The notes under the pieces: generated by a model
What the model was told of the DNA's origin: nothing
Databases searched by the model: none
The model's input: only the letters and a program-made list of their open reading frames with translations
Assembly: GCA_947459875.1 (NCBI GenBank)
Contig: CANHFG010000011.1
Location: 1-44,334, forward strand
Length of the DNA stretch: 44,334 bases
Direction of reading: 5' to 3'
From: Ignavibacteria bacterium
GTDB lineage: Bacteria; Bacteroidota; Ignavibacteria; Kapaibacteriales; Kapaibacteriaceae
Shown: positions 777 through 5,394 of the stretch, one piece after another
Position numbering within the stretch: the stretch's first letter is position 1
How the letters are laid out: each line of letters opens with the position of its first letter
Position numbers and translations under genes: made by a program

Positions 777-1538
777 TTAACGCTCCGTGTAAGGGCGACG
801 TCCGAGGAGGGCGTCGAAGCGCTTCTCCATGGACATTCTTCCTTTGATGAAGGATTCATAGCCGTCCTGGCGCTCGCCCATGGCATCGCTGCGCAGTCTG
901 TCGCGCACCTGTGTCAGGGCATCGCAGCAGAGTGCCTGCGCATTCCTGATCGGTGTTCCGGAATCGATGACAAGGGGCTTAGCAAAGCGCACCCAGCAGG
1001 CGGGACGTTGTTCACGCAGTAACTCGTATCGCATTGCCACGGGTAGGATGCGGCACGTGCCGACAAGGTGCGCAAGGATGCCGATCCCTGGTTCGCATTC
1101 AATGCGGTCGACGTCTTGGTGGATGAGTTCGCCCTGCGGATACATCCACAACATGCGGTTGCTGCCGCGGATTCTGCTAGCCCCGTAGCGAAGTGACTTC
1201 ATCGCGCTGGCAGCATCTTCGCGGATGACGCTGAAAAGGCCAAGTCGGGAAAAGAACCGATACCGCGACAGCTGACGATACTCCATCATGCCGTCCATGT
1301 CTAAGCTATGGCGTCCCCACGCCAATGACATTGCAACAGCAGCATCCCACCAGGAGGCATGTGTCGAGACGATGACCGTCGGGATGCCATCAGTAGCGGA
1401 ACTTGCACCGAGCAGGTGCTGCTCACCAGCCAGGTAACCACGCGAGAAGTGCCTCCTGAGTGTCAGCGTAAAGTACTGACCCCAGAACAGGCGGTCAAGT
1501 TTCCGAGGGCGGGCCTCGATGAAGGGTGTCTCAGACAT
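777..1538 (-). CDS. Lysophospholipid acyltransferase (PlsC/LPLAT family)
   Basis: A 253-residue protein with the acyltransferase HX4D motif at residues 60-65 (HASWWD) and a block-III-like YPQGE near residue 133, where many PlsC enzymes have FPEGT. The family transfers acyl groups to lysophosphatidate or related lipid acceptors at the inner leaflet of the cytoplasmic membrane. There is no obvious membrane helix, so it is probably peripheral. The substrate cannot be read from sequence; it could be 1-acyl-G3P or an ornithine- or glycolipid-type acceptor. The gene is divergent from mnmA with only 36 nt between the starts, so the mnmA promoter overlaps its 5' end. I see no good Shine-Dalgarno sequence before its ATG. 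Confidence 0.8.
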   Translation of the reverse strand: MSETPFIEARPRKLDRLFWGQYFTLTLRRHFSRGYLAGEQHLLGASSATDGIPTVIVSTHASWWDAAVAMSLAWGRHSLDMDGMMEYRQLSRYRFFSRLGLFSVIREDAASAMKSLRYGASRIRGSNRMLWMYPQGELIHQDVDRIECEPGIGILAHLVGTCRILPVAMRYELLREQRPACWVRFAKPLVIDSGTPIRNAQALCCDALTQVRDRLRSDAMGERQDGYESFIKGRMSMEKRFDALLGRRPYTER

Positions 1539-1540
1539 GG

Positions 1541-1548
1541 TAGTTTTG
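1541..1548 (+). promoter_or_regulatory. Bacteroidetes-type -7 box upstream of mnmA
   Basis: TAGTTTTG is an exact match to the TAnnTTTG -7 box of Bacteroidetes housekeeping promoters, and lies 3 nt beyond the divergent plsC ATG. It would start transcription near 1553, just before the mnmA ribosome binding site. I see no clear TTTG at -33. Confidence 0.5.
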
Positions 1549-1558
1549 CATCTCTAAC

Positions 1559-1565
1559 AGGAAAG
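1559..1565 (+). promoter_or_regulatory. Ribosome binding site deciding the mnmA start
   Basis: AGGAAAG lies 9 nt before the GTG at 1575. With the promoter box at 1541 it argues for the GTG start rather than the ORF-track start at 1359, which lies inside plsC. Confidence 0.6.
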
Positions 1566-1574
1566 CTAGCACCA

Positions 1575-2687
1575 GTGGAACGGAATTCAAATCGCGTCAT
1601 TGTCGGAATGTCCGGCGGAGTCGACTCCAGCGTAGCCGCCGGCCTGCTGGTTGAGCAGGGATATGACGTTATCGGCATCACCATCAAGACCTACAAGTAC
1701 GAGGACGTTGGTGGAAACGTTGGCAACGATTCCACATGCTGTTCACTCGACGGAATCAACGATGCTCGGCGGGTAGCCCTTGGCCTGGGTGTGCCGCATT
1801 ACACGGTGGACTTTACCGAGACGTTCAAGGATCAGGTGATCGATTACTTTGTTCAGGATTACCTCGAAGGCAACACCCCGAATCCCTGTGTCAAGTGCAA
1901 CCGGCAGATCAAGTGGGCCGAGATGCTTAAAAAGGCCGACGCTCTCGGTGCGGAGTTCATCGCCACGGGACACTATGCAAGCATTATGCACGATGAGACC
2001 TCGCAAAGGCGTTGGATTCGCCGCAGTCCGGATGTGCAGAAGGACCAGTCCTACATGCTCTGGAGCGTCCGGCAGGAACACCTTGCGCGCACTCTCTTTC
2101 CGCTGTCCGGCTTTACCAAGCCGCAGTCACGTGCCGAAAAAGAGCGTCTGTCGCTGGATCTGGCTCCCAAGCCTGAATCGTACGAGATCTGCTTCATCGC
2201 TGACAACGACTACCGTCGGTTTCTTCGTGACACCGTGCAGGACATCGACCAGCGTGTCGGTATGGGTGAGATTGTTCTTGATGGAAAGGTGATCGGCACG
2301 CACGAAGGCTATCCATTCTATACGGTTGGTCAGCGAAGGGGGCTTGGCATTGCGCATCCTGAGCCGCTCTACGTGCTGAACGTTCTTCCGTCGAGCAACA
2401 CCGTTGTGGTTGGAACGGAGGACAAGCTCGAGTCGACCACACTTACAGCGCATAGTGTGAATCTTCAGAAGTACGCCGATCTGAACGATCCCCGGAAGTT
2501 CATGGTCAAGGTTCGCTACAAGGACGAGGGTGCTATGGCTACCTGCCACACCGATGAGCAGGGCTTGCTTTGGGTGGAGTTCGATGAGCCGCGCAGGGCC
2601 ATTGCTCCGGGTCAGTCGGTTGTTCTCTACGAAGGCGATGACCTGGTTGGCGGCGGAATCATTCAACGACCTGCCCGGGACGTCTGA
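1575..2687 (+). CDS. mnmA: tRNA-specific 2-thiouridylase MnmA
   Basis: A 370-residue enzyme that thiolates U34 of tRNA (Lys, Glu, Gln), using ATP and persulfide sulfur. The ATP PP-loop SGGVDSS is at residues 13-19. The first catalytic cysteine sits in NPCVKCN (about residue 105) and the second in YEICFIADN (about residue 205), so both active-site Cys are present. The C-terminal beta-barrel follows from about residue 285. I start it at GTG 1575, because the usual MnmA begins only a few residues before the VIVGMSGG strand and the longer ORF runs over the divergent plsC. The stop is 2 nt before the tgt start, so the two tRNA-modification genes are probably co-translated. Confidence 0.95.
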   Translation: MERNSNRVIVGMSGGVDSSVAAGLLVEQGYDVIGITIKTYKYEDVGGNVGNDSTCCSLDGINDARRVALGLGVPHYTVDFTETFKDQVIDYFVQDYLEGNTPNPCVKCNRQIKWAEMLKKADALGAEFIATGHYASIMHDETSQRRWIRRSPDVQKDQSYMLWSVRQEHLARTLFPLSGFTKPQSRAEKERLSLDLAPKPESYEICFIADNDYRRFLRDTVQDIDQRVGMGEIVLDGKVIGTHEGYPFYTVGQRRGLGIAHPEPLYVLNVLPSSNTVVVGTEDKLESTTLTAHSVNLQKYADLNDPRKFMVKVRYKDEGAMATCHTDEQGLLWVEFDEPRRAIAPGQSVVLYEGDDLVGGGIIQRPARDV

Positions 2688-2689
2688 AC

Positions 2690-3844
2690 GTGCATCCTGT
2701 TTCGCCCCTTGACAATCCTTTCCGGCTTACGGCAACGTGCGCTGACACCAACGCGCGTGCCGGCGAGCTCCTGACCGATCACGGAGTTGTTCCAACACCG
2801 ATCTTCATGCCTGTCGGCACGCAGGGGGCTCTGAAGGCCATGGATCATCGCTCTCTTCGCGAGCTCGATGTTCCGATCATACTCGCCAATACCTACCACC
2901 TGTATCTGCGGCCCGGCGTGGAAACGCTTTCAAGGATGGGCGGGCTGCACAGGTTCAGCACATGGGACAGGCCGATCCTGACAGACAGCGGTGGGTTTCA
3001 GGTCTTTTCGCTTCGCGACCTCCGCACCATGAGTCAACAGGGCGTCGAGTTTCGGTCGCATATCGACGGCTCAAGGCATCTGTTCACACCGGAGAATGTC
3101 GTCGATACGCAAAGAGCTATAGGCAGTGACATCTTCATGCTGCTCGACGAATGCACGGCCTATCCGGCCGATCATGACGTGGCACGCCGCTCAATGGACC
3201 TGACACTCCACTGGGCGGAACGGGGGCGGGCACGTCATCTGAGCACGCCGTTTCACTATGGCCACCGTCAGTTTCAGTTTGGGATCGGACAGGGCAGTGT
3301 GTACCCGGACCTCAGGCGCACGTGTATGAGCGCACTCGTGGACATGGGGTTCGACGGTTATGCCATTGGCGGTCTAAGCGTTGGTGAGCCTGCAGAAAAC
3401 ATGTACGAGATCGTAGCCTGTTCAACAGAGGCCATGCCCGAACAGAGCGCTCGGTATCTGATGGGCGTCGGTACGCCCGAGAACATCCTCCGGTGCATCG
3501 GATTAGGCGTGGACATGTTCGACTGCGTAATGCCGACGAGAAATGCCAGGAATGGCACACTCTTTACCAGCACGGGACGCGTCAACATCAAGAATGCGAC
3601 ATGGAAACAGCGCGACGAGCCCATTGATGCGAATGTAGGATCGGCAAGCAGCCGAAACTACTCCTTGGCGTATCTTCGCCACCTGTTCAACGCTGGAGAG
3701 ATCCTCGGACTCATGCTGGCTACCGAGCAAAATGTTGCTCTCTACAGGTGGCTGGTAAGAACAGCACGTGAAAAAATTCTTGAAGGGACGTTCCGTCAAT
3801 GGGCGGCCGAAACGATCGACATTCTCAATCAACCACGAACCTGA
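2690..3844 (+). CDS. tgt: tRNA-guanine transglycosylase with all zinc ligands replaced
   Basis: A 384-residue TGT, the enzyme that exchanges G34 for the queuosine precursor preQ1 in GUN-anticodon tRNAs. It starts at GTG 2690, 2 nt after mnmA. Catalytic elements are intact: general base Asp99 in TDSGGFQVF, LLDECTAYP around residue 153, GGLSVGEP at 227-234, and nucleophile Asp278 in FDCVMPTR. The zinc site is not. The family CxCxxC before the SRAYLRHL-like helix reads V316-x-S318-x-x-S321 (DANVGSASSRNYS), and the fourth ligand, His in TEHN, is Gln347 (TEQN). Spacing to the family motif is exact with no gap, so this is substitution, not misalignment. I checked the codons. The enzyme is probably active but zinc-free. 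Followed by yajC, a common neighbour. Confidence 0.93.
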   Translation: MHPVSPLDNPFRLTATCADTNARAGELLTDHGVVPTPIFMPVGTQGALKAMDHRSLRELDVPIILANTYHLYLRPGVETLSRMGGLHRFSTWDRPILTDSGGFQVFSLRDLRTMSQQGVEFRSHIDGSRHLFTPENVVDTQRAIGSDIFMLLDECTAYPADHDVARRSMDLTLHWAERGRARHLSTPFHYGHRQFQFGIGQGSVYPDLRRTCMSALVDMGFDGYAIGGLSVGEPAENMYEIVACSTEAMPEQSARYLMGVGTPENILRCIGLGVDMFDCVMPTRNARNGTLFTSTGRVNIKNATWKQRDEPIDANVGSASSRNYSLAYLRHLFNAGEILGLMLATEQNVALYRWLVRTAREKILEGTFRQWAAETIDILNQPRT

Positions 3845-3867: not shown

Positions 3868-4173
3868 ATGCTCCTTATGGCCCCGCCACCGTCTGCCGGT
3901 GCAGATCCAACCGCACAGCTGATGCAGACACTGTTCATGTTTGCCGCCGTCATCGGCATCTTCTACTTCATGATGATCCGTCCGCAGCAGAAGCGTGCGA
4001 AAGAGCATCAGAAGCTCCTGTCGAACCTTAAGAAGGGTGATAGCGTTGTGACCTCCTCAGGCATCCATGGTACGGTGCACGAGGTCGACGAAGCAACCAT
4101 TTCGGTGACAATCGCCTCGGGCTGTAACGTTAAGTTCGACAAGGCATCAATCGCTACGGTTGTCCAGAAGTAA
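3868..4173 (+). CDS. yajC: Sec translocon accessory subunit YajC
   Basis: A 101-residue protein with one N-terminal membrane helix (about residues 18-37, LMQTLFMFAAVIGIFYFMM) followed at once by the family signature IRPQQKRAKEH, then a small cytoplasmic barrel containing LKKGDSVVTSSGIHGTV. YajC associates with SecDF and YidC in protein export; SecD and SecF are not in the window. The ATG has AGGA 7-8 nt upstream. The gene lies 23 nt after tgt, the usual tgt-yajC arrangement in many bacteria, so it probably belongs to the same transcript. Confidence 0.95.
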   Translation: MLLMAPPPSAGADPTAQLMQTLFMFAAVIGIFYFMMIRPQQKRAKEHQKLLSNLKKGDSVVTSSGIHGTVHEVDEATISVTIASGCNVKFDKASIATVVQK

Positions 4174-4194: not shown

Positions 4195-5394
4195 ATGTTC
4201 GACACCATAACGACTGCCGTCGAGGCACTTCAAGCGGGTCGGTGCATCATCGTCGTCGATGATGAAGATCGTGAAAACGAGGGCGACCTTGTTTGTGCTG
4301 CGGAGCTGTGCTCGGAGCAGAACATCAATTTCATGGCGTCGCATGGCAAGGGGCTGATCTGCGTCAGCGTGACCGAAGAACGCGCACGGCAGCTGGACCT
4401 CCCGTTGATGGTGCGCGACAATACGGCTCTGCACGGAACGCGTTTCACCGTCAGCATCGACTACGTTCATGGTACTGCCAGCGGCATCTCAGTCAGTGAC
4501 CGCACGGCAACGGTTCGTGCGATGGCCTCTGATTCTGCCGCTCCGGCGGACTTCGGTCGTCCGGGTCACATCTTTCCGCTGATCTCCGTCAACGGCGGCG
4601 TATTGCGGCGCGCGGGGCACACCGAAGCCGTGGTCGACCTTATGAAGCTTGCCGGCCTCAAGCCCGTCGGAGTTCTCTGCGAGATCCTGAAGAGCGACGG
4701 CTCTATGGCACGTGTGCCCGATCTTATGCTGATGGCCAAGGAGCAGGGACTGCCCATCATCACGGTGCAGGATCTGATTGCCTATCGCCGCAGAACTGAG
4801 ATCCTTGTGCGGTTCGTTGCAGAGGCAAAGCTTCCGAGTGAGCATGGTGACTTCATCGTCAAGATCTTTGAGAACACCGTCGATGGCAAGGAGCACGTCG
4901 CTATCGTAAAGGGTGATGTCTCAACCGCCGAGCCGGTGCTCGTGCGCGTGCACAGCGAGTGCCTGACGGGGGACATCTTCGGATCGTTCCGTTGCGATTG
5001 CGGTCCGCAGTTGCACACAGCGCTCGACCAGATAGAGCAGGAAGGGCGTGGCGTGGTCTTATACATGCGTCAGGAGGGGAGGGGCATTGGTCTAACCAAC
5101 AAGATCAAGGCCTATGCCCTGCAGGAGCAGGGTCTCGACACAGTCGAGGCCAACGTTCATCTCGGATTCCTACCCGACCCGCGCGACTATGGCATCGGCG
5201 CGCAGATCCTGCATGAGCTCGGTATCCAGAAGATGAAGCTCATGACAAACAACCCCAAAAAGCGCGTCGGCCTGCAGTCCTACGGCCTTGAAGTGACCGA
5301 GCTGGTGTCCCTTGAAGTTCCAGCTACGGCCGATAATCAGGTTTACCTTGAAACAAAAAGAGATAAAATGGGGCACATTCTACGGCATCTCTAG
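4195..5394 (+). CDS. ribBA: Bifunctional DHBP synthase / GTP cyclohydrolase II
   Basis: A 399-residue fusion making both riboflavin precursors. RibB (about residues 1-200) converts ribulose 5-phosphate to 3,4-dihydroxy-2-butanone 4-phosphate; it shows the acidic metal site DDEDRENEGDL at 22-32 and the GHTEAVVDL motif. RibA (about 205-399) opens GTP to the pyrimidine precursor; it has the zinc site SECLTGDIFGSFRCDCG with all three cysteines, the MRQEGRGIGL catalytic region, and a C-terminal NNPKK segment. Both halves look active. It follows yajC by 21 nt and is closed by a strong terminator. The other riboflavin genes (ribD, ribE, ribH) are not in the window. Confidence 0.96.
   Translation: MFDTITTAVEALQAGRCIIVVDDEDRENEGDLVCAAELCSEQNINFMASHGKGLICVSVTEERARQLDLPLMVRDNTALHGTRFTVSIDYVHGTASGISVSDRTATVRAMASDSAAPADFGRPGHIFPLISVNGGVLRRAGHTEAVVDLMKLAGLKPVGVLCEILKSDGSMARVPDLMLMAKEQGLPIITVQDLIAYRRRTEILVRFVAEAKLPSEHGDFIVKIFENTVDGKEHVAIVKGDVSTAEPVLVRVHSECLTGDIFGSFRCDCGPQLHTALDQIEQEGRGVVLYMRQEGRGIGLTNKIKAYALQEQGLDTVEANVHLGFLPDPRDYGIGAQILHELGIQKMKLMTNNPKKRVGLQSYGLEVTELVSLEVPATADNQVYLETKRDKMGHILRHL

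Follow-up and report, generated by a model that had tools for sequence, protein, structure and literature searches.

Zinc in a tRNA-guanine transglycosylase

The zinc subdomain of tRNA-guanine transglycosylase (TGT) has been called a hallmark of the enzyme (PMC6165067), its zinc residues are called highly conserved (PMC4425180), and the enzyme is described as zinc-dependent (PMC9508795). The locus considered here raises the question of whether a TGT can dispense with the metal. Indeed, the window, by which we mean the whole stretch of 44,334 nucleotides that was analysed, encodes a TGT in which every zinc ligand is substituted. For the E. coli enzyme a need for zinc is stated in a passage of PMC9508795 that cites Chong et al. 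1995, so that an uncompensated loss of zinc would be expected to be harmful. Full-text searches of open papers yielded no prior report of a zinc-less TGT, a provisional result.

A single tgt gene with substituted zinc ligands

The gene in question, tgt (positions 2690–3844, forward strand, GTG start), encodes a tRNA-guanine(34) transglycosylase of 384 amino acids. Its identity is given by the TIGR00430 equivalog (453.2 bits, against a curated cut-off of 306.75) and by PF01702 (482 bits, against a cut-off of 26), together with an AF2 model. Upstream lies mnmA, the tRNA 2-thiouridylase gene (1359–2687, forward strand; PF03054, PF20258 and PF20259), and downstream yajC (3868–4173, forward strand; PF02699); the tgt–yajC gene order is likewise seen in Listeria. 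In the mnmA open reading frame (1359–2687) about 78 residues precede the Pfam match, which begins at residue 79, and the true start is probably located downstream.

Where the TGT of Zymomonas and of E. coli carries Cys, Cys, Cys and His as ligands, the window's enzyme shows V316, S318, S321 and Q347, and it thus lacks the CxCxxC plus His ligand set of the Zymomonas/E. coli type. In the alignment with the Z. mobilis sequence (DSECHCAVCQKW in Z. mobilis against DANVGSASSRNY in the window's TGT, then TEHN against TEQN, without gaps), Val316 (GTA, 3635–3637) stands at C318, the first zinc cysteine; Ser318 (TCG, 3641–3643) at C320, the second; Ser321 (AGC, 3650–3652) at C323, the third; and Gln347 (CAA, 3728–3730) at H349, the zinc histidine, all four codons being on the forward strand. 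Ser321 and Gln347 are also the residues of the clasp proposed below. The initial annotation, which had described a substitution of all four ligands at the spacing of the Zymomonas protein, is borne out by both alignment and codons, as positions 316, 318, 321 and 347 fall exactly on C318, C320, C323 and H349.

Two observations had been named in advance as damaging to this reading, namely an intact CxCxxC in close relatives and a second, zinc-containing TGT elsewhere in the genome. The first was not seen among the close relatives: the same VSSQ combination is common to G008, G001 and G009, whose TGTs are respectively 95%, 87% and 87% identical to that of the window, so that a sequencing or assembly error, or a single-strain anomaly, is ruled out. 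The second was looked for and is absent, as the whole genome (99.4% complete) holds one PF01702 match only, in a search that returned matches in all 14 control genomes. Nearly all relatives also have one TGT per genome.

Distribution of zinc-site loss across Bacteroidota

Whether the loss is a clade trait was one of the points left by the initial annotation, and alignment with relatives answers it positively: the site is intact in none of the 53 complete TGTs from the window's order (10 families), and most Ignavibacteria outside the order have it intact. The same annotation had called zinc loss specific to this protein. The loss is not confined to one protein in one organism; it is fixed in the order and extends to most Bacteroidota. 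Among 249 distinct Bacteroidota TGT sequences, CCCH was kept in 59 and the site was lost in 190, figures (59/249 and 190/249) which are not population frequencies because the sample is skewed to the window's relatives. The site was lost in all named Bacteroidia, Flavobacteriia, Cytophagia, Sphingobacteriia, Chitinophagia and Balneolia sampled, and in 33 of the 46 sampled families that carry no group name.

Within the window's class, most families keep CCCH (Ignavibacteria such as Melioribacter), three have lost it (f15, f19 and f22), and one, f24, is mixed, with FSNH in genus L062 and CCCH in genus L090. In the wider phylum the loss affects nearly every family, f26 being the one that retains CCCH. 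The residues found at the four ligand positions differ between groups: mostly G-S/T-D-H in Bacteroidia and Flavobacteriia, S-L-D-H in Sphingobacteriia, mostly L-G-S-H in Cytophagia and F-S-C-H in Balneolia, while the families with F-N-C-H/Q are probably Chlorobi. A half-dismantled site, in which the third cysteine and the histidine remain and the first two cysteines are gone, occurs in L085, L087, L096, L106, L239 and relatives, which belong to families (probably Chlorobi, and Balneolia) where it is fixed across genera.

Outside the phylum, the motif was intact in all nine TGTs compared, which came from plasmid records (Xanthomonas, Monoglobus, Listeria, Sphingomonas, Arthrobacter, Legionella, Klebsiella, Enterococcus and Acinetobacter); the Xanthomonas sequence is counted as intact (CGCHACS), the automatic alignment being one column off. 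On plasmids, the resistance genes rmtG and rmtE2, which encode 16S rRNA methyltransferases, were found directly adjoining a divergent tgt and, on Klebsiella plasmid NZ_KX029332, adjoining rsmH as well.

Number of losses

In the phylum tree (68 representatives, zinc-site columns excluded, rooted on E. coli and Zymomonas), the CCCH sequences are basal, beside the outgroup, and four changes are needed (4–6 over bootstraps). An alternative would be one loss at the base of Bacteroidota, with CCCH later regained by Ignavibacteria and some further families through gene transfer. At the scale of the phylum such a history is compatible with the AU test, which does not reject one single zinc-less group (p-AU 0.231); however, it has to accommodate both the basal position of the CCCH sequences and the 4–6 changes required. 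Moreover, when the tree is built at class level with the f24 pair, L062 and L090 come out as sister genera (support 96/84) and, with L090 added, a single zinc-less group is rejected (p-AU 0.011). As this class-level test rejects a single group, more than one loss within the class is supported, and one basal loss followed by regain appears unlikely. We consider instead that zinc-bound TGT was probably ancestral and that the phylum gave up the metal on more than one occasion, this history forming part of the joint explanation developed below. The loss is much wider and older than the initial annotation could see.

A proposed polar clasp in place of the metal

The initial annotation had treated the four ligands as lost together. 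All four are indeed substituted, but they are not equally lost. Within Kapabacteriales, position 316 is hydrophobic (L, V or I in 46 of 53 sequences) and position 318 is unconstrained, at the 99th percentile of variability, whereas positions 321 and 347 lie near the middle; Ser occupies position 321 in 45/53, and Gln is found at position 347 in all sequences compared from the window's family. The same tendency is visible among the 187 zinc-less TGTs: position 347 is His (125) or Gln (62) and nothing else, and position 321 carries Ser in 94, Asp in 57 and Cys in 24, together 175 of them (94%). None of the 187 retains exactly three ligands. Thus, position 318 drifts, and positions 321 and 347 are limited to a few polar residues.

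Residues 321 and 347 share one metal in zinc-bound TGTs and are therefore neighbours; from the fact that both stay restricted after the loss, we infer that a 321–347 contact acts as a polar clasp, which would replace zinc in holding the loop. The zinc subdomain would then fold without zinc, the former CxCxxC loop being held on the C-terminal helix by the packing of hydrophobic residue 316 and pinned by the side chains of residue 321 (Ser or Asp, with Cys in some clades) and residue 347 (His or Gln). The dimer and the tRNA platform once braced by zinc could thereby be maintained. The counts for the D321–H347 and S321–Q347 associations were suggestive, but not significant after phylogenetic correction, the independent pairs being too few.

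Compensating aromatics were also considered, as W305 occurs in 139 of the 187 zinc-less TGTs but does not figure among the residues common at that position in the 59 CCCH sequences, and W354 is likewise enriched among zinc-less TGTs. They were not retained, since their link to zinc loss was not significant after tree correction, with too few independent changes.

Structural modelling of the former site had been proposed by the initial annotation. The AF2 model of the window's TGT (mean pLDDT 91.5, with blocks of 89–98 from residue 311 on) displays the TIM-barrel TGT fold, with a Foldseek TM-score of 0.92–0.95 to Z. mobilis TGT and an rmsd of 1.5–1.9 Å in most top matches to 1pud and other Z. 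mobilis TGTs, and the helices of its former zinc subdomain agree with those of a Melioribacteraceae CCCH control. As AF2 is blind to metals and its input alignment includes CCCH homologues, the conservation of the fold tests the idea weakly and shows only compatibility. Y330 and H333 of the Z. mobilis enzyme belong to the dimer hot spot (PMC5395182), and their equivalents, Y328 and H331, are invariant in the window's order. A comparison of a Phocaeicola TGT with the PDB gave no solved TGT structure from Bacteroidota, the best match being an enzyme that retains CxCxxC.

Metal use

Rather than being zinc-free, the site might still bind a metal at the same place, in a weakened form, through Ser, Asp, His or the backbone. 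The families that keep C321 and H347, i.e. the Chlorobi-like ones (FNCH) and Balneolia (FSCH), and the pairing of Asp with His in Bacteroidia (G-S/T-D-H), would fit such a site. However, two ligands by themselves do not make a structural zinc site, no cysteine is left at the site of the window's TGT, and in its family Gln replaces His347. Furthermore, a search around the former zinc site found no new conserved set of Cys or His able to form another one. A weakened site is accordingly improbable, and the window's TGT would be zinc-free, as far as can be judged from its sequence.

A different question is why the zinc site was given up. Zinc-sparing paralogues are known, and the loss could represent an adaptation to zinc scarcity comparable to the C-minus ribosomal proteins under Zur; within the queuosine field, PMC9508795 cites the case of QueD2 under Zur. 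This would, however, have to be reconciled with a genome devoid of a zinc-containing twin copy and with a trait fixed over a phylum of very different habitats. The other zinc enzymes of the window also argue against it: as the initial annotation had stated, they retain their ligands, the cysteines being intact in AccD (zinc ribbon PF17848), PriA (PF18319) and RibA (ribBA, 4195–5394, forward strand; PF00926 and PF00925; CLTGDIFGSFRCDC). An origin in zinc sparing is thus improbable.

Indications of a working enzyme

The two catalytic aspartates, whose retention had been noted from the start, do not vary in any of the 251 sequences: Asp99, the general acid/base (D102 in Z. mobilis; 2984–2986, forward strand), and Asp278, the nucleophile (D280 in Z. 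mobilis; 3521–3523, forward strand). Residues conserved without exception across the 251 sequences, whether or not these keep the zinc site, are D99, S100, G101, G102, Q104, D153, C155, G227, G228, D278, R284 and R287, and the preQ1-pocket residues (D156, C158 and GGL in Z. mobilis) are present as D153, C155, G227, G228 and L229. Relative to the two nearest usable relatives (95% and 87% identity), dN/dS is 0.046 and 0.044.

Besides tgt, the genome has queC, queG, queF with adjoining queD, and two queA-family genes. The second of the queA-family pair gives a weaker score across almost the full length of the model and may serve a different function. Three in-frame TGA codons could have indicated a broken queG, but this was ruled out, as the stops fall beyond the open reading frame, in a 7-base repeat on its downstream side. 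This minisatellite (GTGACAA/GTGACGA) lies directly 3′ of queG, at a contig end; the same repeat is found upstream of queF–queD–gltX at another contig end, and it may mark the junction of the two contigs.

At the scale of the phylum, a genomic study found that Bacteroidetes mostly make the surveyed micronutrients, including queuosine (PMC6593275), and another study presents them as main salvagers of queuosine (PMC10570037); in both cases their tgt was counted as functional. For tRNA of Bacteroidota, no direct measurement of queuosine by chemical means was found in the open literature.

The zinc-less TGT looks active, and the presence of Q-pathway genes and purifying selection point, indirectly, to preQ1 exchange. 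It would be a housekeeping enzyme whose customary double-displacement reaction puts preQ1 in place of G34 in the four tRNAs with GUN anticodons. That it has instead degenerated or taken a new role, as a pseudo-enzyme or a partner subunit like eukaryotic QTRT2, might be suspected from the loss of a feature called a TGT hallmark (PMC6165067), but is very improbable given invariant catalytic residues, a dN/dS of 0.045, its position as the sole TGT alongside an otherwise complete Q pathway, and the opposite pattern in QTRT2, where the active site is lost and zinc is kept (PMC6165067, PMC4425180).

Taken together, the explanation we regard as probable is that of an active, ordinary TGT with a zinc-free subdomain, whose loop is held by the packing of residue 316 and by the 321–347 pair, and which arose through multiple losses. 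The zinc-independent, active TGT proposed by the initial annotation remains the best reading, the absence of the metal itself being inferred.

Significance

We lean slightly towards the broader proposition that most Bacteroidota, including the dominant gut Bacteroidales, use an unrecognised class of zinc-free TGT that arose several times with the same Ser/Asp–His/Gln solution. If so, the general statement that TGT needs zinc would be contradicted, zinc in TGT would be structural and replaceable rather than essential, and the automatic ‘binds zinc’ annotation would be wrong for Bacteroidota TGTs. The enzyme is studied both as a target for drugs and as the entry point to the queuosine pathway, and the phylum with zinc-less TGTs includes bacteria abundant in the gut and in the environment. 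In addition, natural before-and-after pairs such as L062 and L090 would offer a view of how a structural metal is given up; because the two members of such a pair are close and differ in the site, a four-residue swap could put the route of metal loss to a direct test.

Comparison with known systems

The window's TGT is a known enzyme in a zinc-less version, not an enzyme of a new kind. With the bacterial TGTs of Zymomonas (1pud) and E. coli it shares fold, length, catalytic and base-recognition residues, the tgt–yajC setting and the Q pathway; it differs in that their CxCxxC…H is replaced by a loop of equal length with V/L..x..S and Q/H. Eukaryotic QTRT1 and QTRT2 belong to the same superfamily and have the same zinc-subdomain architecture. 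However, both retain the zinc ligands, even QTRT2, which has lost catalysis, whereas the window's TGT has kept its catalytic residues and lost the zinc ligands.

The initial annotation had drawn a parallel with the zinc-free paralogues of ribosomal proteins. These C-minus proteins are also related to translation and have also lost all their zinc cysteines, but as a rule they are additional copies, switched on when zinc is limiting. The parallel is a misfit here, as the window's genome has a single TGT with no zinc twin, and it is the sole enzyme itself that has changed. A closer analogy is offered by the LID of adenylate kinase, which carries a four-Cys zinc site in some lineages and a hydrogen-bond network in others. 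The folds are unrelated, and the replacement network of TGT is a proposal based on sequence; in both cases, nevertheless, the only housekeeping copy of an enzyme would have exchanged a structural zinc site for contacts between polar side chains.
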